Of a stretch of DNA of 64,000 nt, positions 41,101 through 64,000 are shown piece by piece. A program made the translations under genes and the position numbers. Position 1 is the first letter of the stretch. Each line of letters starts with the position of its first letter. Origin of the DNA: a virus; the IMG/VR virus record IMGVR_UViG_3300021057_000011, positions 37,450-101,449 of that record. One strand, 5' to 3'. The notes under the pieces were generated by a model, which was not told the origin of the DNA, searched no databases, and saw only the letters and a program-made list of their open reading frames with translations.

Positions 41101-44100
41101 GTAGCCCTTTTCAATCGCCTGGTTTTTCTGCAGGGCGTTGATGCGCTCCTGCTCCTCTTTTTTCAACCGCTCGACGGCGAAGTAATACTGATCAACATCG
41201 GACGCGCGGTCGGCGGCCCGCCCTTTTTCGGCATCTGGTCCGATGAACGTCGGCACTTCGGCCAGGTCCTCACCCAACTGCTCGGTAGCTTTCTTGACCC
41301 CGCGGCGGGTCAGGAACTGGGCGGTTTGAATCTCGGGTGCCAGGCTCCGTTCTGCTGCAGCCTTGGCTCGGGCTTCCTCTGCACGGGTCTTTTCAAGCAG
41401 CTTTTCGAAAACGGGGATGGTCTTGCGCAGCTCTGCGGGGGTTTTGGCTCCGGCCACGAGATCTCCCAGGTCAGACTCGCCCGTGATTTTCTTGATCTGT
41501 TCAAACAACTGCGGCGAAACATTCCCGGTCAGCCGACGCAGGCGCCGTTCGTCCACGTTGGGGAACAAGGTTTTGTCCAGATCACCTAGAACTTTCCTGG
41601 ATGTGACTTCTGCTAAAATCAGTCCACCGAATCCGCCAATGGGTCCTAGACCGGGAATAGCAGATCCCGCGATAGCACCACCAACCCCGGCCACATTTGA
41701 AAGGGTGCCTATGGGTATAATCGGGGATTTACGAGTCAGCTGGGCAAACTGTTGCAGATAGGGATTTGAAATCTGGGGTTCCCCTACCAGTTCCCCTGTG
41801 GAGGCGATGACATCTTCCGCCACACCGGCAGCCAGGGCTAAAGGACCTGCCCCCCGAAGTTTCGAAAGACCGGCAAAAGCAGCTTCGCCCCCGGCCTGCA
41901 GAAAACCGCCCAACCCCCTCAGCGCAGCTCTTGGGTTTCGAATCAGCTGGTTGGCTTGCTGAACACGGGCACTGAAGGGGACACGGGGTTTGGGGGCTGT
42001 CAGCAGGTCATCGTACAGTCCCAGTCCGCGCAAGCTGTCCGCCCCCGCGACCGCGCGTCCTACCCGTTGCACCGTTGTCGGGGTTTGGGTTTTAAGGGCA
42101 TCGATGAGCTGCAACCCTTTTGCGCCGACAAAGGCTCCTCCGGCGATACTAGCCGCGCGCAGCCCCAGTCCCCCGATCTTTTGGAGCCCTTCCCCGGCAA
42201 AACGAGCGGAATCGATCGCAGCATTTCCGGTGCGATCGGTGAACAGTCGGTTGCCGGCAAAGAGCCGGGCGACATTTTCCGCCGAGGTGCGGGAGTAGGA
42301 ATCCGCTTCGTCCGTCAGGTACTGGTCCTTGCCGGCGGAATCGGCCGACAGGGCGGCCAGAAGAGAGACCAGGCCCAGGGCTCCGCCTTTGGAGAAGACC
42401 GTGCTGGCGACCTTGGGATTGGCGAACAGCGCGGGAATTCCCAGCGCCAGGCCGCCGATCGACAGGGCCGTGCCTGTGCCGTCGGGCAGACCGCCACCCT
42501 TGAGAAAGGCATCCAGCCCCTTGCGCAGCTCATTGAGCGCACTCAGCGGCTTGAAAATAGCCGTTGCGAAGACCGCAAAGCCGCTGGTGAGTTTTTCGAG
42601 AACAGAAAAGCCCGTGTTGCCGACGCTGACGAAGGCATTGGTCAGACCCAGGAAGGGCCCTTCCTGGGCACTTTCGCCGAAGGTCTGACCAAAGGCCTTG
42701 CCGATGTTGTTGAGAATGCCCAGCGTCAGCTGCTCGGTTTCGCGCAAGTTCTCCCCGAGCTCCTTGAGCCGGAGCACCCGCCCGGTGGTCTGAATTCCTT
42801 TGCGCAGGTCGTCAAAGGCCCCGATCCCTTCAAAGACCGAGTTGACCAGCGAGAACTTGAACACGCCGGCGGCCACCGAGCCAAAGGCGACCACTTCTGC
42901 ACTCAGCTGGCGCACAATGCCAATGCCGTCCTGGAGCTTGTCGAGCCCCGGCCCGAAATTTTTCAGGATCGCCTCGCCGATGTTGAGTCCCGCGCGCAAG
43001 GACGAGGCGGCCTTGAAGGTTTCCCCGCCAGCGAGGCCCTTGGCGATGTTGCGGTTTTCAAAGGGCAGGGCATGCAGGGCCGACAGGCCCTTGGGAATGC
43101 CTGCGGCGGCCTTGGCGCTGATCAGGCGAGCAGCCAGCGAGCGCTCGAGCGAAAAGCCCTTTTCGACCGCCCCTTTGGCAGTGAAATTGTCCAGCACGCC
43201 GCCGAAGTTTTCCACATCTCCCAGCAGAGCCCGCTTGGCCTTCTTGCCAATCGCGGAATCGATCCCGATCCGAGCGACGTTTCCGACCAGGCCGGTGGCG
43301 AAGTCGCCAGCCCGTTTGAGCACAAAAGGGGCGATGCCAATCGCGAAGACTGCGGCGATTTGGGCCTTGAACTTGACCATGAACTGGAGGAACTCGAGGG
43401 CGCGCTTCGTCAGCCCGCCGAACAGGCCGCCGACGTCCTCTTTGAGGTAGCTGGCGAAGGCCTTCGAGGCGGCCGAGGCGGATTGGTCCGCTTCGCCGAA
43501 GGCCCCAGCAAGGGTATTGGCTCCTTCGGCGGCCTGGACAAGGAAATTCGTGACTTCCTGGAACGAGCTCTCGGTGGACAGCCGGATGATGGTCTGGAGG
43601 AAGTCCTGGACGTTGGACGAAGCGCCTTTGAAGGTTTTTCCCAGCCGCTCGACGGTGCCGGCAAAACGCAGCTGGATGACTTTCTGGAGGGCCGAGACGG
43701 CTCCCTCGGAATCCTGGGCCGAGCCGGAAAAGCCGAAGGTCTTGAGATCCTCGCGGGAAATACCGTACTGGCGCAGGCGGACGAAGCGATTCTGGGTGGC
43801 GGCGATGAAGGCGTCCGTGGCCTGGTCGGGGGTCGTCCCAAAGGCGGCGGCGAGATCGACGATTGATTTGACCACCGAGCCCTGGTACTTCGGTCCCTTG
43901 GTGATGTCCAGATTGCCGGTCAGCGATTGCTGGGTGAAGCCTTCGGCTGCCAGTTTGTTGATCGTTGAAATCAGGTCCTTGCTCTCGAAAAAGGGCACTT
44001 CCAACGCAAAGGGCTGGGCGAAGCCTTCGAAAACCTTCTTGGCTTTTTCGGCTGTACCCAGCGTCGAGCTCAAGGTGGTGAGGAAGACTTCCAGCTGGGC

Positions 44101-46788
44101 GTTGGCTTCGATAAAGACCCCGGAAATGGCCGCGCCGATCTGCGACAGGGCATAGGAAACTTCCCCGATCAGGAACAGATCGCCCACAAAGGTCGAAAAC
44201 AGCGAGGCCGGTTCCGAGGCCCCCATAAGGGCATGCAGGGGTCCGCGGCCTTCGGGTGATCGTCCACCCCCACCGCCTCCGCCCCTGGGTGTCTTGGGCC
44301 CGCCAGGGCCACCAGACGAGGGGACAGTACGCCGGCGACCCGGCACAGGCAACCCGTGGGCTTCGCGTGCGGCGAGATTTTCCGCGGCAATGGCGGCATC
44401 GAGAATCTGCTTTTCTTCAATCCGCCGCTGCTGCAGTTCCGCCAGGCGGGATTCCAGCCGGGATTTGTGGATCGGATCGGTGACTTTGTCCTGGACCTCT
44501 TTGACCGAGCGGATATCTCGTTCCGTCAGTGCCAGTTTGCGCGCGGCCGCATGGAATTTCGGGCTGTTGGCCGAGGCCGCCACCGCGGCCGCCATGCCTT
44601 CCTCAAAGCCTTCCTTGACCTGTTTGCGCAGGTCCTTTTTCAGGTGCGCGGTGTACTTCGAGACATCGATCTGGCTGAGCTCGAGCAGCGCGGATTGCTT
44701 GTCCCGGACTTTGGAGATATCCCCCTGACCAAAGCGGGCGAACAGGCGCTCGAGAGAGGAGCGATTTGTGTCACTCAAGGAGCCACTCGGGGCTCGGAGA
44801 AGACCGTTGACGACCGGTTCCAGGCCTGCCAGTTCCGGAAGTTGGCTGGCAACCCCTAACCGAACGGACAGAGCGGAAGGACTGCCTTTTCCTTGCAGCT
44901 TCGCTTGTGCTTGGGCAAGTGGTCCAGAAGCACTCGGTGATGTCGCCAGTCCTTGTTCGAGTTCATCCAGAAAATCGTCAGAAAGCTCATTGATTAAACC
45001 ACCAATGTCGGAAACACCCTGGACTTCGCGTTTGGCGATACCGTAAAACGAATTCAGTTTGCCCCGCAGGGTTTCGCGATTGACTTCAATGCTCTCATCC
45101 GGTGCCTGTGTTTTGAGGAGGTTTCTGAATTCACGGTATTGACCCACAACTTCTGCGGCATGGGTTTTGGTGAGCTCATCGTCCGAAAAGCGCCCCATCA
45201 AGCCCGCAATTTGGGTTTTGTACCGCATCGAGGTGTCAGTGGTCGTATCTTCTTTAAGACCGTAGTACTTGAGGGTCGGAGCAGTGAGGGTTTGGAAGAG
45301 CTCAGACAGTGCAGCGACCCGTGATGTGACATGGGGAAAATTGGGATCGGCATCGGGTTCGATTTTTGCCCAGGGGCGTCCAAAGGAGCGCATCAATCCC
45401 AGGAACGCACTCTGATCTTCGGGGCTCAGGGTATTGTCCGGGCGCGCAACCAGCTGTTTGAGGAAGGCATCGACGCCCGTCAGCAATTCTGCAATATTTT
45501 TACGCGGCGGGCGATTGCCGCGCCCACCCCCAGGCCCTACAACCCCCCCAGACGCAAAATGGCCTCGCTTGAGCAATTCCTGGACCTGTCCCTGGTTGAG
45601 GACCACCTCCCCGGGATGCAGAATTCCCAGCAGACCCGGACCCTGGGAGCGTTTTCCCGGTCCCAGAATCCGGTTGATCCCACTGTGCGGGCCCAGGTTG
45701 CTGGCAAAGCCCCCGATTCCCCCTACCCCGCCACCGCTAGCGAAGCGGCCAAATCGTTTCTTGAAGTTCGGGTGCTCGATCGCCTGCTTGACGATGCGCA
45801 GGCCGCTGTAGTCATCCAGTGACGAGACGAGCTCCGGGGCCCGGTTCACCATTGCCTGGAGGGCGAAGCGGGACAGGGATTTCTGTAGCTCGGCGTTGCC
45901 GGTGAACGGTTCGTTGTTGGTCAGGATCAGGGGGTTGGACTTGTCCCGGAAGAACTGGTTCAGGGACTGGGCATTGCCGCTCGAGAGCACATGGTAGGCA
46001 TCGCGGACGAGATCGACCTTGCGGGCCGGGTCGTCAGTGAGGTCCCGGTAGTATTCGTTCAGGGCCTTGTGGTATTCCTTCGACATCGCGACGAACTTGC
46101 CCTGGGCCTGCTTGGCGACCGCGGCATTGTAGCTCGGGGCATTGGCCTTGAAGTGTTCCGCGACGTTGTCGGCAAAGCGGTTGCGCAGCGCGCCGTAGTA
46201 GGCGACCCGGAAGCCCGGGTCGGACCCGACCTTGGTGCCCAGCTCCCGCAGCGAGGCCGGCATGGGGGTAAACTCCCCGGTGGGTTTGGGTGTAGGTTTG
46301 GGCGCCGGCCGAATGTCCGGACCATAGGTCTGCTGAACTTGGCGGCTAAGGGCTTGTTTTTCTTCAGAGCTCAGACGCTGGATCGCTGCATCCCGCTTTT
46401 GGGTGTAGAGTGGCGATGGGGTCTCGCGCGAAGGCAGAGGCGTGCTGGTGCGAGGCCGGCCAATGTTGGGAGCTCCGGAGTCCGGGATAATGTTGAAATC
46501 CCGTCGCAGGTTCGTTTTTTTGGCTCGACGAGCAAGTTCAGCCTGAATGCGTTGCTCTTCTGCTTCTTTGCGAAGTGCATGCTGACGTAAGAGTTCCTCT
46601 TTTTCAACACGCCGCATATCACGGCCTGTCCAGGCTGTGTAGTCTTTTCCGGTCAGGCGCTGAAACTCTGCCCGCAAATCTCGGTGGATTTTGTGGGCCG
46701 GGTCGTCCGGGATATTACGTGCAAACTCCAAATTGTACTCAAGCGCTTTGAGCTCGGTCCACAGATAGTCGATACGGGCGATGTCCAT
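38176..46788 (-). CDS. Tape measure protein (2,870 aa)
   Basis: By far the largest gene. It begins one base after the stop of the chaperone fusion, with AGGGGG upstream. The product alternates long coiled coils with Gly/Ala hydrophobic stretches. The N-terminal part carries G-G-F/FASGG segments and LHPGEVVLNQGQVQ near residue 390. The middle (about 850-1,600) has typical tape-measure sequence with predicted membrane-like helices (VGGAIAGSAIPGLGPIGGFG), and the last 1,000 residues are mostly coiled coil. At the usual 0.15 nm per residue it predicts a tail near 430 nm. No peptidase or lysozyme motif was recognised inside it. Confidence 0.92.
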   Translation of the reverse strand: MDIARIDYLWTELKALEYNLEFARNIPDDPAHKIHRDLRAEFQRLTGKDYTAWTGRDMRRVEKEELLRQHALRKEAEEQRIQAELARRAKKTNLRRDFNIIPDSGAPNIGRPRTSTPLPSRETPSPLYTQKRDAAIQRLSSEEKQALSRQVQQTYGPDIRPAPKPTPKPTGEFTPMPASLRELGTKVGSDPGFRVAYYGALRNRFADNVAEHFKANAPSYNAAVAKQAQGKFVAMSKEYHKALNEYYRDLTDDPARKVDLVRDAYHVLSSGNAQSLNQFFRDKSNPLILTNNEPFTGNAELQKSLSRFALQAMVNRAPELVSSLDDYSGLRIVKQAIEHPNFKKRFGRFASGGGVGGIGGFASNLGPHSGINRILGPGKRSQGPGLLGILHPGEVVLNQGQVQELLKRGHFASGGVVGPGGGRGNRPPRKNIAELLTGVDAFLKQLVARPDNTLSPEDQSAFLGLMRSFGRPWAKIEPDADPNFPHVTSRVAALSELFQTLTAPTLKYYGLKEDTTTDTSMRYKTQIAGLMGRFSDDELTKTHAAEVVGQYREFRNLLKTQAPDESIEVNRETLRGKLNSFYGIAKREVQGVSDIGGLINELSDDFLDELEQGLATSPSASGPLAQAQAKLQGKGSPSALSVRLGVASQLPELAGLEPVVNGLLRAPSGSLSDTNRSSLERLFARFGQGDISKVRDKQSALLELSQIDVSKYTAHLKKDLRKQVKEGFEEGMAAAVAASANSPKFHAAARKLALTERDIRSVKEVQDKVTDPIHKSRLESRLAELQQRRIEEKQILDAAIAAENLAAREAHGLPVPGRRRTVPSSGGPGGPKTPRGGGGGGGRSPEGRGPLHALMGASEPASLFSTFVGDLFLIGEVSYALSQIGAAISGVFIEANAQLEVFLTTLSSTLGTAEKAKKVFEGFAQPFALEVPFFESKDLISTINKLAAEGFTQQSLTGNLDITKGPKYQGSVVKSIVDLAAAFGTTPDQATDAFIAATQNRFVRLRQYGISREDLKTFGFSGSAQDSEGAVSALQKVIQLRFAGTVERLGKTFKGASSNVQDFLQTIIRLSTESSFQEVTNFLVQAAEGANTLAGAFGEADQSASAASKAFASYLKEDVGGLFGGLTKRALEFLQFMVKFKAQIAAVFAIGIAPFVLKRAGDFATGLVGNVARIGIDSAIGKKAKRALLGDVENFGGVLDNFTAKGAVEKGFSLERSLAARLISAKAAAGIPKGLSALHALPFENRNIAKGLAGGETFKAASSLRAGLNIGEAILKNFGPGLDKLQDGIGIVRQLSAEVVAFGSVAAGVFKFSLVNSVFEGIGAFDDLRKGIQTTGRVLRLKELGENLRETEQLTLGILNNIGKAFGQTFGESAQEGPFLGLTNAFVSVGNTGFSVLEKLTSGFAVFATAIFKPLSALNELRKGLDAFLKGGGLPDGTGTALSIGGLALGIPALFANPKVASTVFSKGGALGLVSLLAALSADSAGKDQYLTDEADSYSRTSAENVARLFAGNRLFTDRTGNAAIDSARFAGEGLQKIGGLGLRAASIAGGAFVGAKGLQLIDALKTQTPTTVQRVGRAVAGADSLRGLGLYDDLLTAPKPRVPFSARVQQANQLIRNPRAALRGLGGFLQAGGEAAFAGLSKLRGAGPLALAAGVAEDVIASTGELVGEPQISNPYLQQFAQLTRKSPIIPIGTLSNVAGVGGAIAGSAIPGLGPIGGFGGLILAEVTSRKVLGDLDKTLFPNVDERRLRRLTGNVSPQLFEQIKKITGESDLGDLVAGAKTPAELRKTIPVFEKLLEKTRAEEARAKAAAERSLAPEIQTAQFLTRRGVKKATEQLGEDLAEVPTFIGPDAEKGRAADRASDVDQYYFAVERLKKEEQERINALQKNQAIEKGYYEAATAQAKRLEAVLKDLKLISDALAPEEALVAKLKAQTETAKKGHERVTVIEEEAARDKQISDNIDTQILLTASRGDRQGAELLREKKKEDRRARGPIVLGRVERLLSEQNTFQTILIENQDTQAKLKKQLQDTNKKGEIKALGDLQSRFKIENPETLKEFQTIISRAITSDSEEGREAGFKDLDRLLKALRPEDNVKGASGATTISKFINTLRQAAGESNQLRKNLEALGVVINDVGEKSKNAGIQISNLTQQQIDDAQKQLEEIQTDLAQKRITPLDAASEIRKINANVFSNPLLADSPEAKEAKLRQEQADIAAEQALRGRTELAREMTAVLSDTLTAIDAVTRSLQQLDSLDSGRAFEGTIQQVRALSRLVDAALPGTDQYTQLVNEFNQAVGQALGSYDKLLQLRQKDIDLLRQVANLQEQNAVQIRTQIAIEQVPLIRSTSAVPTSRAELRAADRDLTRVSIIQEQGDAELRRLQFEQQQQGILDRIADRNETARRKAGLRSTLAREYQIGDLVAVNPDEQAEIERQNAEDLAEGLSNAQRQYQFLLNDEVNSRRKINELAKQAVELKKEERELAKAIADRDEFRIKSRNNLFRAIYRAQTGADNLPEPVNKAIQIGELFETTRKINTLFASGAKRDDILKEVTDFGNALGDIKAGGISEKEKPFVKEHAKSFASFIRRLQKTAPDTELEDQQAKIQTRRGIVDDLVKAEIENLRTLAPDKERAHLSFEQFRKSLDSGTLARIQADADAKADLLRPDLKNAGLKPETLFLKGADLFTKAVEKFAAAVGFKDTQKITEIVGKQRELYSDPRNTTLGAAALRGTQSSGIPRRSAASKRVVSDDLDYSMATVNHQPAMELAATNRRTKEHDKATQRQVQSASDNQVKSDVRTQVQLMQQMFKVLSMMAGKPSTPTKNYEAHLEKGLQSLDTLVTLLSNPNATEDQIQQAVDKPPTRTVPSPGFSSEKSNR

Positions 46789-54291: not shown

Positions 54292-55815
54292 TCACGCAGT
54301 GTGTTGGGATAAGACATTGCCGGGGCCGTTCCCCAACGCCTGATCGGAAACCTGCCGGACGGTCGCGCCGTTGCGAGCGACCCCTCCGAAATTGGCCGGT
54401 GAGCCGCTGACGGGAATCTGGGACGCGAGCTGGGCGAGCATCTGCGCCATGTAGATGTTGCGCCCGGTGTCCCGGTCCTCCATCAGCTGATCGATGTATT
54501 GCTTCACGTTCGCCACTCCGAGCTGGCTCAGGGCGTCGGCGACGGTAATCAGCCCCATCTGGAGCCGGTTCATGATGATGTTGGTCTGAATCAGCTGGTC
54601 CATCGGCAGCGGGTCGGGCCAGCAGATGTCGGTGGTGTAGTACTCCTCGAGCTCGTACCAGGTCGAAAAGCTCGGGCGGGAAAGATGACCGTACTGGATG
54701 CCGTATTTGACCAGCAGGCGGTTGACCTGGCTCAGGGCCTGACCATAGGTGAATTGCTTGGTGCGGGTCACTTCCAGCAGCGGCTGGAACAGGACCTGGA
54801 GGGCGGCCCCGGAGGTGTTGGAGATCGCCTGGTCGCCGCCAAAGCCCGCTTTGGGCATTTCCGACAGCATGAACATGGTGTCGATCAGGAACTTCAGGTG
54901 GTCGTTGGCAGCCTTGAGATCGCCCTTCATCTCGAGGTTCTCGATCTTGACGTCCTTGGGGCCCTTGTTGCCGATCACCCACATCTTGCGCGCGCCGCGC
55001 TGCATCTGCTTGATCGTGACCCCGTAGGCGACCGTCACCGGCGAGCCGTAGTAGTCGATGATCTCGCTGATGTTGGTGCTTTTCTCGTTGATGAGCTTGT
55101 TGATGGGGATGATGGAAGCCAGGTCACTGGTGCCAAAGGAGGCTCCGGCCTCCGGGCGGTTGCGGAACATGACCAACGGCACTTCGCCCAGATTGTGCGG
55201 CTGGGAGGAAATCAGGGTCCCGTCGATGTACTGCTGGATGTTCAGGGAATCCAGCCACATCGTCAGGGTGCGCTTTTTAGTCCGCTGGGTCAGGCCGGAG
55301 TCTTCGTTGAGGGGGAATTCAATCTTGGCCGCCAGCAATTGGGAGCGATCGGCCGGGTGGTAGACCGGGGTGACGAACATCGGGGGGATGAGCTTGGGAA
55401 CCGCCCCGCCGGCGTTGTTGGGAAGGACGGCAATCGCGCCGTCGCCGAAAATGCCGCCGAGCTGGGCCATTTCGTAAGTGAAAATGGATTTGTTGCTCAC
55501 GCGCCAGACGCGCTCGAGGTACTCGAGCTGCTCGCGGGAGTAGGGCTCTTCGCGGTCCTTGATCGTCCAGCCTTTGCCCGTGAGAAAGGCGGCCCCTTTG
55601 TTGACCAGCAGCCGGGCAAAGTTCAGGGTGATGTTCTCTTCGCCGTCGGTGCGCTCGTGGGCCCAGTGCCGGCCCTGGTAGAAGTTCCACAGGGTCGCGT
55701 AGCGGCCCAGGCGCTGCATGTCTTCGTGCGAGGGGCGCATGGTGAAGGGCTTCCCCAGATCGTTTTCGGGGAAGTAGGTGCTGACGGTGCTGCCGCGGCC
55801 AAAATCGGTGCCCAT
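54292..55815 (-). CDS. Portal protein
   Basis: The 507-residue protein starts at ATG 55815, with GAGGA upstream. The N-terminal clip/wing region has RLGRYATLWNFYQGRHWAHE and NITLNFARLLVNKGAAFLTG, hallmarks of SPP1-type (SPP1_gp6-like) portals. The stem/crown part contains NISEIIDYYGSPVTVAYGVT and a long C-terminal helical stretch. It forms the 12-subunit vertex through which the terminase packages DNA. It lies upstream of the scaffold-like and capsid genes. Confidence 0.85.
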   Translation of the reverse strand: MGTDFGRGSTVSTYFPENDLGKPFTMRPSHEDMQRLGRYATLWNFYQGRHWAHERTDGEENITLNFARLLVNKGAAFLTGKGWTIKDREEPYSREQLEYLERVWRVSNKSIFTYEMAQLGGIFGDGAIAVLPNNAGGAVPKLIPPMFVTPVYHPADRSQLLAAKIEFPLNEDSGLTQRTKKRTLTMWLDSLNIQQYIDGTLISSQPHNLGEVPLVMFRNRPEAGASFGTSDLASIIPINKLINEKSTNISEIIDYYGSPVTVAYGVTIKQMQRGARKMWVIGNKGPKDVKIENLEMKGDLKAANDHLKFLIDTMFMLSEMPKAGFGGDQAISNTSGAALQVLFQPLLEVTRTKQFTYGQALSQVNRLLVKYGIQYGHLSRPSFSTWYELEEYYTTDICWPDPLPMDQLIQTNIIMNRLQMGLITVADALSQLGVANVKQYIDQLMEDRDTGRNIYMAQMLAQLASQIPVSGSPANFGGVARNGATVRQVSDQALGNGPGNVLSQHTA

Positions 55816-55906
55816 GCCGGTCCTCAACAGGAAGGATGCGAGACCGGTAAGGAATCAGTGGCGGGCGAGAGGGGGACCAGAGGGTGTATCGGGGTGTGTC
55901 AATGGC

Positions 55907-55912
55907 TATACT
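55907..55912 (+). promoter_or_regulatory. -10 box for the plus-strand methyltransferase-like gene
   Basis: TATACT ends six bases before ATG 55919, so a transcript would start at or next to that ATG, the arrangement of a leaderless mRNA. No good -35 match is present (GTGTAT at the right distance). The alternative start ATG 55949 has GAGG upstream and would give a normal leader. Confidence 0.4.
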
Positions 55913-55918
55913 AACGGT

Positions 55919-56734
55919 ATGCATCCGAAATTACAAACGAGGCCCGTGATGACCCCACCCCCTGTGATCGATGAAGACCGCGTCAGCTCTGCGTTTCCGA
56001 TAGACACACCCTGCTCGCTGGGGGACAAAGTTTCCCTGTTGCTGCTGCAGGAAGCGGTGGTGGCCCTGCTGGGGGACTACCAGTACTTCGAAATCGGCAG
56101 CGGCCAGGGAGGATCGCTCTACCCTCACCTGGTGCAGGCGCGCTGCACGCGGGCCTACAGCCTCGACCCGCGCCCCTGGATCCATACCGGCACCGACCAG
56201 ATGGAATTCCCAGGGCCCACCAGCAGCAAGGAAATGGCCAAGACCCTGTTCATGACCCTGTGCGGGGACACCCAGCTCAAAAAGCTGACGGCGATCGAGG
56301 CGACCTCCGATGCGCCGCACGAAACCTTCCGCGAAGCGGGCCGGTCCATCAAGGCCCATTTTTTCTTTTGGGATGGGGACCCGACCTGGTTTCGGAGTGA
56401 TTTCGAGCTCTGCCTGCGCCTGAGCCCGCCGCAGGCGGTCTATGTGGTTCAGGGAGCCCCCGGCCTGGCGTCTGAGCTGCGCGAGATGATCGGACATGTG
56501 CTGCATTTGACCGATCAGGTCATGGCCTACCCGCTGGTGGACACCCTGTTCGTGATCACCAAGAACCTGCCGCTGCACCGCTACACGCCGCTGCAGGCGC
56601 ATCTGCTGGAGTACGGACATCTGCCCTACCTGACCGCCCTGCAGGCGCAGGAAAAATACCAGGCCTTTTACCGCCGGCCTTTGTTTCGGTGGTGGCGGGG
56701 GCTGGTGGCGATGCTGAGTGGCAAACGGGCATAA
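55919..56734 (+). CDS. Class I methyltransferase-like protein (Methyltransf_24 type)
   Basis: The 271-residue product (261 if ATG 55949 is used) has motif I FEIGSGQGGSLYPHL and an acidic end of strand 2 (AYSLDPRPW). HFFFWDGDPTWFRSDFELCL resembles the fiDG-H-s-y-e-x-v-x-x-D segment of Methyltransf_24 proteins, with Pro in place of the usual His. These enzymes methylate sugars, lipids or small molecules; a phage target is unknown. It is opposite in strand to all neighbours, has its own -10 box and faces the endolysin terminator, so it looks like an accessory insertion. Confidence 0.6.
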   Translation: MHPKLQTRPVMTPPPVIDEDRVSSAFPIDTPCSLGDKVSLLLLQEAVVALLGDYQYFEIGSGQGGSLYPHLVQARCTRAYSLDPRPWIHTGTDQMEFPGPTSSKEMAKTLFMTLCGDTQLKKLTAIEATSDAPHETFREAGRSIKAHFFFWDGDPTWFRSDFELCLRLSPPQAVYVVQGAPGLASELREMIGHVLHLTDQVMAYPLVDTLFVITKNLPLHRYTPLQAHLLEYGHLPYLTALQAQEKYQAFYRRPLFRWWRGLVAMLSGKRA

Positions 56735-56758
56735 AAAAACGGTCCCCGTAGGGACCGT
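56733..56758 (-). terminator. Intrinsic terminator after the endolysin gene
   Basis: An 8-bp stem (ACGGTCCC and complement, 4-base loop) is followed by TTTTTTT on the minus strand. It ends the terminase-to-lysin transcript and overlaps the stop of the convergent methyltransferase-like gene. Confidence 0.8.
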
Positions 56759-56814
56759 CGAACCCAAATGATAACAATCGAAACTATCTACTACCCTATC
56801 AAATTGCAGCGCGC

Positions 56815-57819
56815 CTACAGCTTCGCCCGGGTGTAGTTCACGCCCCCGCCACTGCTGCGGGCGATCAGGTACTCCTTGCGGGGCACGGATCCCGCTTCGG
56901 CAATCCCGACATGGACCCACGAGCCGAACTCCTCGATCACCTGATCCACCGGCAGATTCAGGGAGTGGATGAAGCGCATCAGGGCGTCGTTGGTCATGCC
57001 CGGGACATGGATGTCCGCCGCCCGGCCGTACATGTGGGCGGAGTACTTTGCTCCTCCGATGGCGCGGTTGAGCTCCGGGCCGCGGTAGCCGGAGGTCACG
57101 ACCACAGGCTTGCCGAGGGCTACACGCAGGGGCTCGAGCACGGTGTCGCACAGCCGCTCGAGATTGGCGATCTCCTTCGGGCCCGGGGTGTTGGGAATGC
57201 CCTTGCGCGCGGCGGTTTGAGAGACGGTGAGCTCGGTGAGGGTGAAGTGGGCTGACAGCTGGCCCGGAGGCCCATTTTTGGCGGGCTTTTCAGGCGGGTG
57301 GGACGCTGCGACGGGCAAGGGGGTGGTGCCTTTGACGGAGTTTTGCCGGACCCCTTCCTCCCAGAGATCCGCTTCCGCCGCCCGCCGCTTTTTGAGCCCT
57401 TCGGTGACATTTGTGCCGGGGTTGACGTAGAGCATGAAGGCCTGACGCATCGTGCCCCAGTCCTTGGTGCTGAGCTTGCGGCTGATGGTCTCGAAGCCCT
57501 TGGCATTGTAAAAGCCGGCGCCGAGGTTGTAGGCGAAGCTTTCGAGTGCGGCGATCTGGAGCGGGTGCATCTGATCGAAATAGGGCAGATTTTTGAGGGC
57601 CGGGGTGACCGTGGTGAGGACGTGTGAGGTGAGCTCAGCCTCGGCTTTGTCCTCGGTGATGGTATCCCCGCGGCGGACGCGGAGCCCGTCGGCATAGACA
57701 GTGGTCCCGTAGCCGATGGTGGCGACATTCCAGCCGTGCAACGGATCGGGGTAGGCCTCGCGGCGGAAGCCTTCGAAACGTTTGATCAGGGCAATGCCCT
57801 CGGGGGTCGGTAGGTTCAT
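56815..57819 (-). CDS. Two-domain endolysin: GH24 lysozyme plus M15 peptidase
   Basis: The 334-residue protein should cut the host wall at glycan and peptide. Residues 1-150 are a T4-type lysozyme: E16 in KRFEGFRREAY, D25 in YPDP and T34 in ATIGYG. A Pro-rich linker (about 165-185) joins a C-terminal M15-type carboxypeptidase/endopeptidase domain with TSGYRGPELN, SAHMYGRAADIHV and WVHVGI, giving the His-Asp-His zinc set. No signal peptide is seen, so it needs a holin. The start overlaps the zincin gene stop (ATGA). Confidence 0.85.
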   Translation of the reverse strand: MNLPTPEGIALIKRFEGFRREAYPDPLHGWNVATIGYGTTVYADGLRVRRGDTITEDKAEAELTSHVLTTVTPALKNLPYFDQMHPLQIAALESFAYNLGAGFYNAKGFETISRKLSTKDWGTMRQAFMLYVNPGTNVTEGLKKRRAAEADLWEEGVRQNSVKGTTPLPVAASHPPEKPAKNGPPGQLSAHFTLTELTVSQTAARKGIPNTPGPKEIANLERLCDTVLEPLRVALGKPVVVTSGYRGPELNRAIGGAKYSAHMYGRAADIHVPGMTNDALMRFIHSLNLPVDQVIEEFGSWVHVGIAEAGSVPRKEYLIARSSGGGVNYTRAKL

Positions 57820-58751
57820 GGGGTGACTCCTTGAGGTTCTGGGATTTCGAGAAAATCGGGCGGCACGGGCAGTAGCTGAGACAGCGCGGTCGAAAGACGG
57901 TCTACCGAGACTTCGTGCACCTGGTTGTAATGCCCGTAGTACAGGCTGTTCTCATGCTTGGAGAGGTACTTGATCCCAGCATGCTCCACAAACACGAGCT
58001 CCTGGCTGAAAAGGAGATGCAGCAGCTCATGGGCCACTGTTTTTCGCATTTCCCGCCAGCCGCGCGTGAAGAAGGACGCCCCGACCTGCAGCGCGGTGTG
58101 CTGCCGGCCCCGTAGGGGCTGAATCGCGGCATTGGCCTTGTCATCACACATCTCCGCGCGCAGGCACAGGCTGAAATCGAACATCCCCAGGGCCGGCATG
58201 CAGTCCTGCACGATGTAAGATCCCAGCTTCTCGCCGACCGATTCGGGCAGTTCTTTCTCTGGCACGGGCAGGCGGGTTGGCGCCAGCTTGGGTTCCTGGG
58301 CAATCGGAAACGCCGGGTCCGGCGGCAGCTTAAAGCCCGGCCCGAAAAAAACGGGGACCTCGGGCAGCAACTCAATCAGGATCTGGGCCAAGCGCTCGAC
58401 GGCCACATCGTGCAGGCGCTCGTACTGGCACTTCCAGAAGTCCCATTCCATGGGGCGTAGAAAGGTTTCCAGATCCAGGGCGGCGTATTTCTGCGGCTGG
58501 AAATGGACGTCGGCGAGCAGTTCCGCGAAGATCAGTTTCTGTACGCGCACGGGCTTGATGAACAGGTCCCGGTGGAAGGACAGATCGAACCAGCGGGAGC
58601 CCGGCCCGTAAGCCTTCAGCTCCCGATAAACGCCGCCCTCGAGGGGTTTGGCGTCGACAAAGAGCTCGCAATCGTCCATGCGCAAACAGCCCAGGCAGGC
58701 ATCCACATACTGCTGCAGCCGGTCGACTTCGTAGGGGCGAAACTCAGCCAC
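57816..58751 (-). CDS. Zincin-like protein formed by tandem duplication, one copy inactive
   Basis: The 311-residue protein starts at GTG 58751 after GGAGG. Near residues 236-300 it has KTVAHELLHLLFSQ, an HExxH zinc-peptidase motif, with a later HEV that could provide the third ligand. Residues ~70-135 align with this block without gaps for at least 50 positions (KLIFAELLADVHFQ; Y, H, V, V, R-L conserved at equal spacing), but both zinc histidines are Ala in that copy while the Glu is kept. It is coupled to the endolysin. It may be a wall- or virion-processing peptidase; substrate unknown. Confidence 0.65.
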   Translation of the reverse strand: MAEFRPYEVDRLQQYVDACLGCLRMDDCELFVDAKPLEGGVYRELKAYGPGSRWFDLSFHRDLFIKPVRVQKLIFAELLADVHFQPQKYAALDLETFLRPMEWDFWKCQYERLHDVAVERLAQILIELLPEVPVFFGPGFKLPPDPAFPIAQEPKLAPTRLPVPEKELPESVGEKLGSYIVQDCMPALGMFDFSLCLRAEMCDDKANAAIQPLRGRQHTALQVGASFFTRGWREMRKTVAHELLHLLFSQELVFVEHAGIKYLSKHENSLYYGHYNQVHEVSVDRLSTALSQLLPVPPDFLEIPEPQGVTP

Positions 58752-58905
58752 GCTTCCTCCACAGCCGCTCGAGCTGCTGACGGGTGCGCGCGAGCTCGGG
58801 GACCTCGTGCTCCCTGCAGGCGGCGGTATAGCCCCGGTAGAAGCCATACACCGCACTGAGGAAGGCACACAGGGCCACGAAGAGGTAAAAGAGTACAGAC
58901 GGCAT
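58744..58905 (-). CDS. Small membrane protein (53 aa) next to lysis genes
   Basis: GGAGGC sits five bases before ATG 58905, and the TGA at 58744 overlaps the next start. The product has an N-terminal membrane or signal-anchor segment (VLFYLFVALCAFLSAVYGFY) and then a charged helix (VPELARTRQQLERLWRKRG). It is too short for usual gene-length cut-offs. The layout fits a small holin, antiholin or spanin-like protein working with the endolysin two genes on. Confidence 0.6.
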   Translation of the reverse strand: MPSVLFYLFVALCAFLSAVYGFYRGYTAACREHEVPELARTRQQLERLWRKRG

Positions 58906-58907
58906 CG

Positions 58908-59192
58908 TTAGCCTCCCCCTGTTTCAGGGTGAACAGGCTCGACCAGACAACCCTGAACCCATTCAAGGACAGCATCTCCGAAGGTCTGTTCACCCAGTTG
59001 CTGCATGGCGAGGTCCATGGAGTCCATTGTCACATTCATCGCCGTATCCAGAGCCTCTTCCGTGGCCGCATAAATGGGGGCCGAGCGAGACACCAGCATC
59101 TGGGGTATTCCCACGCAGATTCCGACATAGGGTTGCTTGCCTGGCTCGTGGATGAGGACGACAGCGAATAGAGGAAGCTCACAGTGCGACAT
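58908..59192 (-). CDS. Hypothetical protein (94 aa)
   Basis: The start is ATG 59192 with GGAGGA upstream. The first part is beta-rich (LPLFAVVLIHEPGKQPYVGI), and an acidic Met/Ala-rich helical part follows (EEALDTAMNVTMDSMDLAMQ). No family recognised. It overlaps the exonuclease gene. Confidence 0.6.
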   Translation of the reverse strand: MSHCELPLFAVVLIHEPGKQPYVGICVGIPQMLVSRSAPIYAATEEALDTAMNVTMDSMDLAMQQLGEQTFGDAVLEWVQGCLVEPVHPETGGG

Positions 59193-59778
59193 CGTAGATC
59201 CTCCGCATCTCTGCCAGATCCGCATCGGTTTCGGGGGCGGTCAGACGTCGGTTTTCCATGACCCAGGCCATGGCTTTCCGGTAATGCGCCAGTTCGTGCT
59301 GGGCATCTGCCAGGGCATGGTGCGGCAGCGGATTCGGCGGCTGGATTTCGAGCGGCACATGGTTGTCATCTAGGTACTGCTTCAAATCCCAGCAGTACAT
59401 CGGCCAATTCGGCGGCAAATCGCTCATCGACCCCTGCAGCCAGCAGAACAGCACCCAGTCGTAGTCACAAAAATAGCCGCAAAATTGCGGGCTATCAGTC
59501 TGTTCGGCGACCCAGGCCCGGATTTCCTTCCCCAGCAGCGCGGGATAGAGCTTGCGGACCGGCTGATCGTCCAGCGAGGTCATTAGCTGGGGCATGACGT
59601 TGTCGTTGAGCCATTTCGTGGTCTCCTCGGGGCACTTCCACACCGCGCGGGAGTAATCCCCGTTGGTCCAGTCCCGGACGGCATAGAAGGTCTGTCCGTT
59701 CTCCGCAGCCAAACCGATGGACAGGAGCTCGAGGGTGCCGGGGTACTCGATGAATTCGCAGTCGATGAAGATCTTCAT
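59179..59778 (-). CDS. DEDDh 3'-5' exonuclease (RNase T/DnaQ fold)
   Basis: The 199-residue protein has exonuclease motif I FIDCEF (D-x-E), motif II around CGYFCDYDW, and motif III HHALADAQHE, with His and Asp five apart as in DEDDh enzymes. Length fits single-domain exonucleases such as polyadenylate-type exoribonucleases. It could trim RNA or DNA, or scavenge nucleotides. It is part of the overlapping chain between terminase and lysin. Confidence 0.75.
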   Translation of the reverse strand: MKIFIDCEFIEYPGTLELLSIGLAAENGQTFYAVRDWTNGDYSRAVWKCPEETTKWLNDNVMPQLMTSLDDQPVRKLYPALLGKEIRAWVAEQTDSPQFCGYFCDYDWVLFCWLQGSMSDLPPNWPMYCWDLKQYLDDNHVPLEIQPPNPLPHHALADAQHELAHYRKAMAWVMENRRLTAPETDADLAEMRRIYDVAL

Positions 59779-60011
59779 GCAGGAATTTCCACCTTCGCAC
59801 GGGCCTGTTTGGCGCTTTCCAAACAGGTTTCCAGCGCGAGGATCCAGTCTTCGGGGGTTGTGTCCTCGTCTTCGAAGGCAAAGGTGAGGTAGTCGAGCTG
59901 GGCTTGTGGGGTCGCGAGCTCTTTGTAGATCATCGGCAGCACAGGGACCCCGATAATCGTGCCGTCGTTGTCGAGAAGGTTTCCGTCGTTGTCGAACACA
60001 GGAGCTGTCAT
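59775..60011 (-). CDS. Small acidic protein (78 aa)
   Basis: The N-terminus has a short internal repeat (DNDGNLL / DNDGTII), and the rest is an acidic helix (FAFEDEDTTPEDWILALETC). No family recognised. The stop overlaps the exonuclease start (ATGA). Confidence 0.55.
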   Translation of the reverse strand: MTAPVFDNDGNLLDNDGTIIGVPVLPMIYKELATPQAQLDYLTFAFEDEDTTPEDWILALETCLESAKQARAKVEIPA

Positions 60012-60026
60012 AGGGTTACTGTCCTC

Positions 60027-60563
60027 TTACATCTTTTGGAATAGTTCACTGTGCTTGTCAACGGCCGCGAGATAGGCCGGATGAATCACAGCGTAGAAAT
60101 CCGCGTCGGAAATATGATCCCAGCTGAACCAGCCCCTCTCGTTCACCAGGCGGGTGTCTCGCCGCAGGAGAGACTGAATGAGCGGGCCGCTGAGACTGTA
60201 CTCCTGCACCCCATCCCAGACGCCCAAAAGCCGGCCGAAATCTTTCGGAGCAAAGACCAGATACTTCGGGGTCTCCCCATCGAAGGCCAGGCGATGCTGC
60301 GGGGCGGGCTCGAGAATGTCTTTGATCTCGTAATGGGCGTCGAATTCTTCGTAGGTGATCAGGTGCCGGTGGGGAGACTCGTGTTCCCGGGCACTGAACA
60401 TGAAGGTGTACAGCACGGGCTGATGATTTTCCCACACAAGCCGAAACACCCGGTGGTCCCAGTGGCGGGCGGGGTCTTTCGGGACTGCGGAAAACCCGGT
60501 ATCGACCGGAAGATCATGGAAATGGGACCGGACTCGGCGCAGGAGATCGATCGGGGGTGTCAT
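60027..60563 (-). CDS. Hypothetical protein (178 aa) after the terminase
   Basis: The start is ATG 60563, just after the terminase stop; the longer frame is a shadow. The protein is rich in His, Phe and Trp (RVFRLVWENHQPVLYTFMFS, GWFSWDHISDADFYAVIHPA) and looks globular. It has no nuclease or ATPase motif. Function unknown. Confidence 0.55.
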   Translation of the reverse strand: MTPPIDLLRRVRSHFHDLPVDTGFSAVPKDPARHWDHRVFRLVWENHQPVLYTFMFSAREHESPHRHLITYEEFDAHYEIKDILEPAPQHRLAFDGETPKYLVFAPKDFGRLLGVWDGVQEYSLSGPLIQSLLRRDTRLVNERGWFSWDHISDADFYAVIHPAYLAAVDKHSELFQKM

Positions 60564-60568
60564 AAGGA

Positions 60569-63500
60569 TTAGCGTCCTCTCAAAAAATCGTTGCGGCCGC
60601 GCTCGTGGAGGATGTTCTCCACCGGCTCGGCCAGGTACGTGGCTTCGTCTTTGGCCCCCCAATTGGCCAAGGCCAGGGAATCGGGGTAGTCGTCATGGGG
60701 GTCGACCCCATCCACCTTGTCCGCCGGGGCATGGCAGGACAAATAGCCGGAGCGATCCGAGCCGGCTTTGTATTCCTTGATCAGGGTGCGCATCTGGAAG
60801 CAGAAGCGCTTGTGCTGGGGGCTGAGCATCGCCAGCGGGGAGCCCGGGACGATGATGCGGCCGGACTGGACATCGTGAATCAGGGCCTTGTAGAGCTCGC
60901 TCTTGCTTGGCAGCGAGAAGGTGTAGGGCAGGATCAAAATATCCCCAAGAGCGGCGTCGAGGTAGTCGTAGACCACGGCACCCAAGCTCGTGGTATCGAC
61001 CACCACCGTCGAGCCCTGCATCTCCTTGATGAAGCGGACCATGGCGGGAATCTGCTCGGTGTAATTGTCCCCGACCATCTCCAGCCAGCCGAGCAGCCGC
61101 TTGCGGTAGGCGGTGGTGTAAGCCAGCTCGATCGGCTGCTGCATGTCGATTTCCAGCGCCGTCAGAATGGTGCTGTCCTTGGCCTTGCCGACGTCGACGC
61201 CGATGCTGACGGGGTTGAAGCCCCGGTAAAAGGTCAGCAGCTCGAGCTTCGGGTGCAGGATCCCATGGGGATTTTCCGGCGTGCGGTGGGACAATTGGGC
61301 CTCGGTGAAGGCCATGCCGCGCTCGAAGCACCACTCGTTGAGGTAGGACATCCGAAACTCGTCGGAGTCTTCGCCGAGCTTTTCCTTTTCCTTCTCGATG
61401 TACTTCTTGTAGCGGGGGACATGACGCTCGACCTCGCGGTGGTCGACCTCGAAGTGGTTGATTTTGCCGCCTTTTTTCGCCGCCCGGGTGTTCTTGTCGA
61501 CCTGCTCGTAGAGGTCGTTGAGCTGGGTGTTGGCCGTACCGATCATGACCACCGTTCCGGCGGTCGAGGCCGCCATGGGGGAGATGGAGTTGGAGCTGAC
61601 CAGGCCATTGGCAATGAAATTGCGACCAGGAAGCGTCAGGCAGTAGGTCTCCCCCAGCCCGATTTGATGGATTCGCTCTAGCTGATGCCAGCTCAACTCG
61701 GCAGAAGCCGTCCCCCGGCTGGCTAAAAAAACGACGGACTCTTGAAGCAGCCGCGACACCGTATAGTAGTCCGGCTCCGCCTCCAAGGATCCCAATTTCG
61801 CCCACATCTGGTGATTGAGGGTGGCATCGATGTACCAGCCAAGCTGACGATCCCCCACCAACCGGTACAGGGGCTGAATGCCGTTGACGTGCCGTTCCGT
61901 CGGCTGCTGCCACCCGTCTTTGGTCAGGACATCGTAGGTGAAACCGGCTTCGATGTAGTCCCTGAGCTTGATCGTCCACGCTCCATTTTGGACGGGGGTG
62001 GGCCGGTCATCGACCTTGATGAAAATCTCGGTATCCCCAGCCAGGCACTTCCTGATCTTCTTCGGGCTGACGTCCTGGGCTTCTTCGATGATGATCAGGT
62101 GGTAGGTTTTCGACTCGATCATGGCCGATTCCGAGGCCGTCTGGCAGCGGGTCAGGGAGCCGTTGGACATCCGGATCGTATCGCCGCGGTTGACTTCGAA
62201 GGAAATGCCATATTCGCGCATGATGCGACGGCCTTCGTCGTTGGCCAGGCGGGTGCGCATGCGGTCGTAGGTGGTCTTGGACTGGTCTTGCGACGGCGAG
62301 AAGATCCCGATCCAGAAGCCGTCGCGGTATTTTTCGAAGCGCTTGTCGTCGGGGTAGGTGTGGTGCAGGTAGGGCAGCAGGAGCATCATGGCATCGCAGA
62401 CGACGGCGATCGTTTCGGTCTTGCCGGAATTGTGCTGCAGGATCGTGTTGCCGAAGAACTGCTGATCAAGCGTCTCGATGTCGATCAGGGGCTGGGTCGG
62501 TCCGCGGTCGATGCGCAGGATCGGGGCAAAGCAGACCGAGGGGATCAGGGGCTGGCCGTCGGGGAGGGGGGCGAAGGCCTCCTGCTCGGTGACACCGATT
62601 TTTTTGAGCAGGTTGAGCAGCACACAGAGCAGGACCCCGTTCTCCCGGTAGAAAAAGAAGGTCGAGCGCTTCATCCAGTGCTTGAGGTGGGGGTGGGCCT
62701 TCATGACCCGCATGAAGTCCGCCGGGGCCAGCATGTAACCCGTGCGGGCCTTGTAGTGGTCGATGTAGTGCGCGAGCTCCCCGTGCAGGGCATCGTCCCG
62801 GAAATAGGGCTGCAGCCGCTGGCAGTTCTCGAAGCCCGAAAAGACCAGCTTGCCCTCGTGCTCGGTCGGGCTGAGCCCGTGGTGGCGGAGGAAGTAGAGC
62901 AGGGTGGCGTACCACTGCTGGTTGGAGCGAACCGGCAGGGTGATGATCGGGATTTGCTTGCGGTTGTTGCGCCCCATTTCGAGCGTGGCGAGCTTCATCA
63001 GCCAGTGGAGGGTCGTGCGGGGATTGGCAAAGGCATAGGCCAGAATCTCGGCTTCCTTGGCCGGCCCGATCTCGACGGAATGGATGCAGCGGTCGCGGGT
63101 CCGGGAGAAGGAGACGTTGAGGAGCGCGAGGAGGGCATCGTGGTCTGACGGGCGAATGGACAGCGTCAGCTGGTGGGGCAGGACCGAATTGTAGCGTTTG
63201 TGGGCCATCAGCTGGGCGGCATAGAAGCAGCGGGCGGAGAGGGAGGGATCGTCGGGGGTGGCGTCGGCCAAGAGGGAGACCTGGACCTGGAGCTTGGCCC
63301 CTTCGGCGACGGTGCCGTCAGACAGCATTCCCCACTGGTTGTTGGCGAGCTTGAGCAGATGGTCGAGGCTGCAGGTCAGGGAGATCCCGTTGTGGAGGGT
63401 GAGGATGCGGGTTTCTTTGGCCTCGGTTTTTTCCGTTGCCAGGACGGTCGTGGGGGTCAGCCGGCGGCCGTGGGCCGACAGGATGGCGGTCTGGGGGGTG

Positions 63501-63859
63501 AGGGCGGAGATCGGCCGGGGGCCGGCGTCGGTCAGGACATAGGTGTCGGGGTGGACGCACTGCCGGGCGAACAGGCCGGTCAGGGTGGCGACATCCTCCA
63601 GGATGACGGACTCGATGATCCTGCGGGCAAAGGGCAGCTGGTAGGGGCGGAGTTTGGTGTTGGCCAGCTTCTCGCCCAGGGCGAGCATCTTCTCGATGAT
63701 CTTGGAGGTCGGGTGGGGGCAGATGCCGGCGGGGGCCCGCGGGCCCGGGGTCGTGGGCAAGGGTGCCGGCGGCGGCTGGGAAGGTGTGGGCGTCGGGGGA
63801 GGTTGGGGGACGGGCTGGGACGCACTATAAAGACGGGTATTGAACAAACCGAAGGACAT
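60569..63859 (-). CDS. Large terminase subunit interrupted by two inteins
   Basis: The 1,096-codon gene encodes a packaging ATPase/nuclease of about 566 residues after removal of two inteins (residues 101-477 and 605-757). The N-terminal ~45 residues are Pro-rich. The joined P-loop reads LFARQ+SGKTE; Walker B is HLIIIEEAQD, and the coupling motif follows the second intein (SISPMAASTAGT, MIGTA). The nuclease has GVDVGKAKDS, VVVDTTSLG and DPHDDYPDS as the three acidic sites. Both inteins sit in catalytically essential segments, so packaging requires splicing. The frame stays open upstream of ATG 63859, but AGGTGG precedes that ATG. Confidence 0.92.
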   Translation of the reverse strand: MSFGLFNTRLYSASQPVPQPPPTPTPSQPPPAPLPTTPGPRAPAGICPHPTSKIIEKMLALGEKLANTKLRPYQLPFARRIIESVILEDVATLTGLFARQCVHPDTYVLTDAGPRPISALTPQTAILSAHGRRLTPTTVLATEKTEAKETRILTLHNGISLTCSLDHLLKLANNQWGMLSDGTVAEGAKLQVQVSLLADATPDDPSLSARCFYAAQLMAHKRYNSVLPHQLTLSIRPSDHDALLALLNVSFSRTRDRCIHSVEIGPAKEAEILAYAFANPRTTLHWLMKLATLEMGRNNRKQIPIITLPVRSNQQWYATLLYFLRHHGLSPTEHEGKLVFSGFENCQRLQPYFRDDALHGELAHYIDHYKARTGYMLAPADFMRVMKAHPHLKHWMKRSTFFFYRENGVLLCVLLNLLKKIGVTEQEAFAPLPDGQPLIPSVCFAPILRIDRGPTQPLIDIETLDQQFFGNTILQHNSGKTETIAVVCDAMMLLLPYLHHTYPDDKRFEKYRDGFWIGIFSPSQDQSKTTYDRMRTRLANDEGRRIMREYGISFEVNRGDTIRMSNGSLTRCQTASESAMIESKTYHLIIIEEAQDVSPKKIRKCLAGDTEIFIKVDDRPTPVQNGAWTIKLRDYIEAGFTYDVLTKDGWQQPTERHVNGIQPLYRLVGDRQLGWYIDATLNHQMWAKLGSLEAEPDYYTVSRLLQESVVFLASRGTASAELSWHQLERIHQIGLGETYCLTLPGRNFIANGLVSSNSISPMAASTAGTVVMIGTANTQLNDLYEQVDKNTRAAKKGGKINHFEVDHREVERHVPRYKKYIEKEKEKLGEDSDEFRMSYLNEWCFERGMAFTEAQLSHRTPENPHGILHPKLELLTFYRGFNPVSIGVDVGKAKDSTILTALEIDMQQPIELAYTTAYRKRLLGWLEMVGDNYTEQIPAMVRFIKEMQGSTVVVDTTSLGAVVYDYLDAALGDILILPYTFSLPSKSELYKALIHDVQSGRIIVPGSPLAMLSPQHKRFCFQMRTLIKEYKAGSDRSGYLSCHAPADKVDGVDPHDDYPDSLALANWGAKDEATYLAEPVENILHERGRNDFLRGR
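61589..62047 (-). mobile_element. Mini-intein 2 in terminase (153 aa, after Walker B)
   Basis: Residues 605-757 of the terminase begin CLAGDTEIFIKVDD (block A, Cys1). They contain IDATLNHQMW (block B T-x-x-H) and end ETYCLTLPGRNFIANG then LVSSN before Ser+1. The length leaves no room for a homing endonuclease, so this is a mini-intein. The penultimate residue is Ser instead of the usual His. It lies between IIIEEAQDVSPKKIRK and the SISPMAASTAGT segment of the extein, close to the ATPase coupling motif. Confidence 0.85.
62429..63559 (-). mobile_element. Intein 1 in terminase (377 aa, inside Walker A)
   Basis: Residues 101-477 begin CVHPDTYVLTDAG (block A, Cys1). Block B is LTLHNGISLTCSLDH, with Ser at the T-x-x-H threonine position. 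Block F is PLIDIETLDQQFFGN, and the intein ends TILQHN with Ser+1. It separates ARQ from SGKTE of the P-loop. The ~230-residue middle has the length and helical rhythm of a LAGLIDADG endonuclease (ARCFYAAQLMAH; HWMKRSTFFFYRENG), but the acidic active-site residues are not visible, so the endonuclease is probably decayed. Confidence 0.88.
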
Positions 63860-64000
63860 GGACCACCTGGGTAGGAACAGGGTGTTTGACCAGGCGGTGG
63901 GCAGGGCGGCTGGGGGATGGACAGAGCCTGCCAGGTGGACCAGTTCCGAGCATGCCAGATTGTGGGATCGGTGTCGAGTGGGGGCGTGTCTGTGCCGCTT
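63860..64000 (-). other. Right-edge segment with no assigned gene
   Basis: The terminase frame remains open from 63859 to the window edge without an ATG, but the peptide is His/Pro-rich and unlike an enzyme. No promoter or hairpin stands out. A small terminase gene, absent from the window, may lie further right. Confidence 0.3.

Follow-up and report, generated by a model that had tools for sequence, protein, structure and literature searches.

Two homologous halves of predicted zincin fold, one with and one without a complete metal site, in a single phage protein

A phage gene was found to encode a tandem of two homologous halves, and the evidence supports a predicted zincin fold common to both, with a full metal site in the second half (half B) and none in the first (half A). 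The tandem belongs to a family that is named in none of Pfam, PHROG and NCBIfam and is otherwise made up of single-domain proteins; the family is new here, and so is its tandem member.

Results

The tandem gene and its immediate setting

The window covers 64,000 nucleotides of the virus record IMGVR_UViG_3300021057_000011, which is 101,449 bases long. A terminase-large-subunit-like gene (PHROG E 0.002) lies on one side of the tandem gene and a portal gene (PHROG E 1e-39) on the other, and the features of the region are, in coordinates of the window:

58744..58905, minus strand: 53-aa protein with a hydrophobic N-terminus, overlapping the zincin start by 8 bases (membrane reading by eye)
58755..58760, minus strand: RBS-like GGAGGA (GGAGG at 58756-58760), 3 nt upstream of the GTG (read from the sequence)
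57816..58751, minus strand: tandem zincin gene, 311 aa, GTG start at 58751 and stop at 57816 (open frame and translation)
58347..58742, minus strand: half A, residues 4-135, predicted zincin-fold domain without a metal site (single-copy profile and AlphaFold2)
58512..58526, minus strand: AELLA, residues 76-80, with Ala for both His of HExxH and Glu77 retained
58407..58409, minus strand: Asp115 of half A, replacing the family-invariant third-ligand Glu
58257..58346, minus strand: proline-rich linker, residues 136-165 (sequence; pLDDT <50)
57843..58256, minus strand: half B, residues 166-303, predicted zincin-fold domain with a complete metal site (single-copy profile and AlphaFold2)
58017..58031, minus strand: HELLH of half B, residues 241-245
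57900..57914, minus strand: E280, V283 and D284 on the glutamate helix of half B, the third-ligand Glu followed by Val-Asp, invariant in single copies
57816..57819, minus strand: ATGA, the zincin stop overlapping the endolysin start (sequence)
56815..57819, minus strand: endolysin, Phage_lysozyme and Peptidase_M15_3 (Pfam E 1.7e-22 and 1.4e-22; PHROG endolysin)
56738..56759, minus strand: terminator-like hairpin downstream of the endolysin, 9 pairs and a T tail (consensus match only)

The gene start is supported by the N-terminus of the tandem protein, which aligns with that of the single-copy domain. Terminator-like sites numbered 7 in the region, compared with 4.1 (sd 2.5) after shuffling, and the hairpin at 56738-56759 is therefore no more than a consensus match; an Rfam search of 55500-64000 returned no match. 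The 53-aa protein, which matched no family in Pfam or PHROG, has a charged tail and may act in lysis as a holin or spanin-like protein.

The two halves are homologous

The first-pass annotation had proposed a gap-free alignment of the two halves with matching Y, H, V, V and R-L, and this alignment was recovered over 65 positions, 19 of them identical and including all of these residues, with AELLA and HELLH falling in the same register at an offset of 165. Splitting the protein at residue 150 gave a Smith-Waterman score of 79, compared to a mean of 28.7 (sd 4.6, maximum 56) for 2,000 shuffles; the score and the gap-free diagonal together indicate that the original alignment was right and well above chance. 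Aligning half A with half B by blastp gave an E-value of 2e-7, as one comparison; hhalign of half A, as a single sequence, with half B gave a probability of just 47%.

A profile of 11 single-copy proteins, containing none of the window's sequences, gave 61 bits for half B. Half A scored 11.9 bits (E 0.013 in a set of 2,002 sequences), and none of its 2,000 shuffles exceeded 3.4 bits. Because Karate gp9 had come via half B, the test leans slightly toward B and not toward A. When the phage's own 101-kb record was searched by profile, with E-values up to 10 allowed, half B was listed and half A was not. Searching 50,697 phage records with half B gave Karate gp9 as the only meaningful match (E 4e-4), and half A alone returned nothing meaningful from the same records (best E 7); aligned directly to Karate gp9 by blastp, half A reached an E-value of 3e-7 as one comparison.

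The single-copy relatives carry a complete site

For the 311-aa protein, Pfam and PHROGs gave no family above cut-off, and NCBIfam and PADLOC none at E 1. Searches starting from Karate gp9 led to more single-domain genes, both from viral contigs and from bacterial genomes, and single-copy homologues, which the first-pass annotation had suggested looking for, amounted to 12 distinct proteins (Karate gp9, L003, L004, L005, L006, L007, L008, L010, L016, L017, L018 and L042). HExxH followed by Glu-x-x-Val-Asp was present in 12/12 of them and a second copy in 0/12 of the frames read. Outside this set are rows with the same domain (L011, equal to L010; L019, equal to L005; L041, equal to L016), rows from repeat contigs (L009, L012-L015, L023-L030, L033-L038 and L040), the weakly matching IrrE-like protein L032, and L031, a weak match at 26 bits in which VHEVLH is present and the following Val-Asp is absent.

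Profile searches for other tandem members found none, with one match per record in 9/9 records, and genomes likewise yielded no other tandem, with one match each in 3/299 and 3/396 genomes (genome G001 is common to both lists and to the nine-record set). Scans of viral contigs started from window sequences (P0001, half B, three-row A1 or the portal) returned nothing; the scan with A6 (half B first) returned seven contigs, all already known. The scan of genome contigs gave one locus, L019, and a plasmid search gave chance-level matches only.

Half A has lost the metal site and kept the core

The reading of HELLH in the second copy and AELLA in the first, with both histidine ligands gone and Glu77 kept, held up, and the loss extends further than the first-pass annotation had described, as the third ligand is altered too, with Glu280 in half B against Asp115 in half A. 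The site residues H241, E242, H245 and E280 of half B thus have A76, E77, A80 and D115 as their counterparts in half A. Alignment A7 contains 10 single-copy rows (Karate gp9 and L042 are not among them), in which 13 columns are invariant; half B retained 10/13 of these, with changes at W, W and N, and half A 2/13 (Glu77 and Val118); in half A, Glu119 replaces the invariant Asp of Val-Asp. A further 21 columns are hydrophobic in all 10 of these A7 rows, and 18/21 were hydrophobic in A and 18/21 in B, with a background of 52% hydrophobic residues in half A.

The pattern in half A is what a fold under selection without a catalytic site would look like. Because all 12 distinct single-copy relatives have a complete site, the loss in half A is the derived state, and a dead copy is the best reading of this half.

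A common zincin fold is predicted for both halves

In the full-length AlphaFold2 model, where the single-copy rows were aligned to half B only, pLDDT was ~78-91 over residues 171-300 of half B and ~38-60 in half A; modelled alone with the family alignment, half A reached a mean pLDDT of 87.4. Both halves were predicted to contain the zincin core (PMC5512222) of an N-terminal helix, a three-stranded sheet and two C-terminal helices in identical order. The first C-terminal helix of half B carries the HExxH of the superfamily site and the second its Glu, whereas half A lacks this site. The proposed comparison of the two folds came out in favour of a shared one: predicted secondary structures matched at 126/132 aligned positions, compared to a mean of 54.6 and a maximum of 74 for circular shifts, an agreement that is not independent as both models had the family alignment in common. 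Half A of the full-length model, which lacked family rows, had the same secondary structure as the later half A model at 98/135 positions.

Foldseek of either half model against the PDB gave no match at E <= 0.001, and all matches of half A were at E >0.3; a PDB search by sequence profile gave nothing meaningful. In a second look at the PDB with VIA-align, the same zincins topped both halves (BepA, selecase, abylysin, jannalysin, BlaR1 and SPRTN, with IrrE/PprI lower), at Z <8. Against a viral structure library, the half A model matched proteins of uncultured phages that consist of a single domain, at TM 0.82 (E 8.3e-8) and TM 0.80 (E 2.4e-6).

Duplication or fusion

The first-pass annotation had explained the tandem as an internal duplication followed by loss of metal binding. 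The second step stands, the loss in A being derived, and the first is favoured over fusion just weakly, by a tree that joins A and B as sisters with support of 82/77 and a branch length of 7.05 for A. A fusion of two different family members, in place of a duplication within the gene, is unlikely to have given the two halves, as A and B stand together in the best tree and no row is closer by path to half A than half B; in its favour, half A is 12-24% identical to any other row, sits on that long branch, and its sister grouping with B is not strong.

Discussion

A putative peptidase with a possible built-in partner

I infer metal binding and proteolysis for half B and a partner role for half A, and tentatively read the protein as a covalent pair of ~130-residue zincins in which B would be a zinc peptidase and A a non-catalytic partner that clamps or controls it. 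The C-terminal copy, with HELLH and with Glu280 on the next long helix, would act inside infected cells as a small zinc peptidase. The other copy, at the N-terminus, has a predicted fold that is kept but has lost all three metal ligands, together with most of the other residues invariant in the family; it may lie next to the active copy or pack on it, and hold substrate or control access, as dead M16 halves do. Selecase is regulated by oligomerisation, and PDB titles among the structural matches name its monomeric, dimeric and tetrameric forms. In fused M16 peptidases, critical importance for the enzyme has been ascribed to the inactive half (PMC11266112), and it is this precedent, together with selecase oligomerisation, that makes a built-in partner clamping or controlling B the best guess. 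A small zinc peptidase is the likeliest activity of half B because it carries the site described as defining the superfamily (PMC5512222). Evidence of activity or of bound metal was found for no family member, which counts against this reading. A conserved HExxH is no proof of activity, as CD1597 of Clostridioides difficile has its HEXXH intact, yet displayed no proteolysis in the assays used in that work (PMC11460543).

A narrower version, in which the copy lacking ligands pairs with the active one as a pseudo-symmetric clamp and so governs its substrate choice or holds it latent, is rather speculative and would more probably turn out wrong; if true, the tandem would be perhaps the most compact single-chain pairing of an active with a dead zincin, and one of phage origin. 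Dead peptidase copies that serve live ones were found described for much larger enzymes (M16 and carboxypeptidase D), compared to ~300 residues here, and the single-copy relatives with complete sites, one of them in the named phage Karate, would let the effect of the dead copy be measured directly.

Other roles for the domain

The domain may instead cleave a host regulator or defence protein, as thought for IrrE/ImmA-like or SprT-like phage proteases, with half A widening or narrowing the range of targets. Relatives match M78 and SprT weakly and below threshold, the family occupies variable places in phage genomes, and SprT/ArdC-like peptidases of jumbo phages have been proposed to cleave host proteins (PMC7824862), all of which is consistent with such a role; it is nevertheless doubtful, given that the gene lies between terminase and portal, a context without a pointer to early expression.

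It is less probable still that neither half is a working peptidase, that half B binds metal for structure only or has some other role, and that the tandem serves as a binding scaffold. No characterised family member was found, CD1597 was inactive in its tests with HEXXH retained (PMC11460543), and inactive zincins are described as common (PMC3650047), all of which would fit a scaffold, but HExxH and Glu-x-x-Val-Asp on the next helix occur in 12/12 single copies and in half B, as is expected for a metal site under selection.

Gene neighbourhoods and the lysis question

Karate gp9 lies directly upstream of terminase, terminase is downstream of L003, L010 and L016, L007 adjoins a primase or helicase-like gene, and L018 adjoins an exonuclease gene; lysis families were searched for among 10 neighbour proteins of relatives and none was found. 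Because the relatives adjoin terminase, primase or exonuclease genes, the family has no fixed tie to lysis, and a lysis-specific role is weakened. The coupling to the endolysin that had been noted from the sequence is thus present in the DNA, as the ATGA overlap, but its functional meaning is slight, as relatives are not beside lysis genes. That the tandem is a lysis accessory, processing the endolysin, the adjacent small membrane-like protein or another lysis protein, is accordingly very improbable: the overlaps with the endolysin start and with the small hydrophobic protein upstream and the terminator-like hairpin past the endolysin speak for it, and the neighbourhoods of the relatives, with 0/10 proteins in a lysis family, speak against it.

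The portal gene (54292-55827, minus strand) has its closest annotated relatives, at 31-32% identity, in 112-116 kb BRock-type Streptomyces phages. No HExxH domain was present between terminase and portal in the 6 genes of BRock and the 3/7 genes of GiJojo that were translated, and a six-frame scan for HExxH in frames >90 codons found nothing in the terminase-portal stretches of these two phages.

Comparison with known systems

The nearest counterparts are Karate gp9, a hypothetical protein of a Microbacterium phage, and its single-domain family, which have the same domain by sequence as both halves and differ in having one domain with a complete site, in lying beside terminase or DNA genes, and in lacking a dead second copy. 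The minimal gluzincins abylysin, jannalysin and selecase may be alike in fold, being similar in size and in predicted topology (helix, three strands, HExxH helix and glutamate helix), but the structural scores are weak, with VIA-align Z of only 6.4-7.4 for both half models and a Foldseek E >1 for abylysin; in contrast to the tandem they are single domains, and they showed no sequence match to the halves. SprT-like (SPRTN) and IrrE/ImmA (M78) proteins likewise combine a zincin fold, HExxH with a downstream Glu, and occurrence in phages, but have a single catalytic domain. Half B scored 12.7 bits against the SprT-like family PF10263 and the best relative 16.9, compared to a gathering threshold of 25.6; for Peptidase_M78 (PF06114), neither half was listed at E 10, and the best relative reached 17.4 bits against a threshold of 22.

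Anthrax lethal factor has a dead N-terminal zincin-fold domain and an active C-terminal one. The order of dead and active copies is the same here, and its N-terminal region was among the PDB structural matches of the halves, but no sequence relationship was seen, and size and biology are very different.

Fused M16 peptidases and carboxypeptidase D also carry active and site-less metallopeptidase copies in one polypeptide, as described in a review in whose main text the word 'bacteriophage' is absent (PMC11266112); they belong to unrelated families, are much larger, and the M16 site is HxxEH compared to HELLH here. Phage polyvalent proteins contain zincin-like MPTase domains, sometimes several per protein, and in the account given of them these sit among unrelated effector domains, whereas the tandem consists of two zincins and a linker only; the section 'Peptidases' of that paper does not mention dead zincin copies (PMC5512222). 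Active/dead metallopeptidase pairs, as in M16 and carboxypeptidase D, and multi-zincin phage proteins are therefore already known, and no phage active/dead zincin tandem was named in the published titles and abstract beginnings found.

Other features of the window

A 2870-aa frame at 38176-46788 (minus strand) had no Pfam match at E 0.01. The frame at 55778-56734 (plus strand), between endolysin and portal and opposite to its neighbours, contains a methyltransferase-like EIGSGQGG by eye, and neither Pfam nor PHROG matched it at E 0.01. The terminase-large-subunit-like gene (60569-63859, minus strand, 1096 aa) apparently contains two intein-like inserts, of which the first interrupts a Walker A-like stretch and matched an NCBIfam intein N-terminal region at E 0.0013, below cut-off, and the second, judged by eye, starts near CLAGDTE and ends near NGLVSSN.
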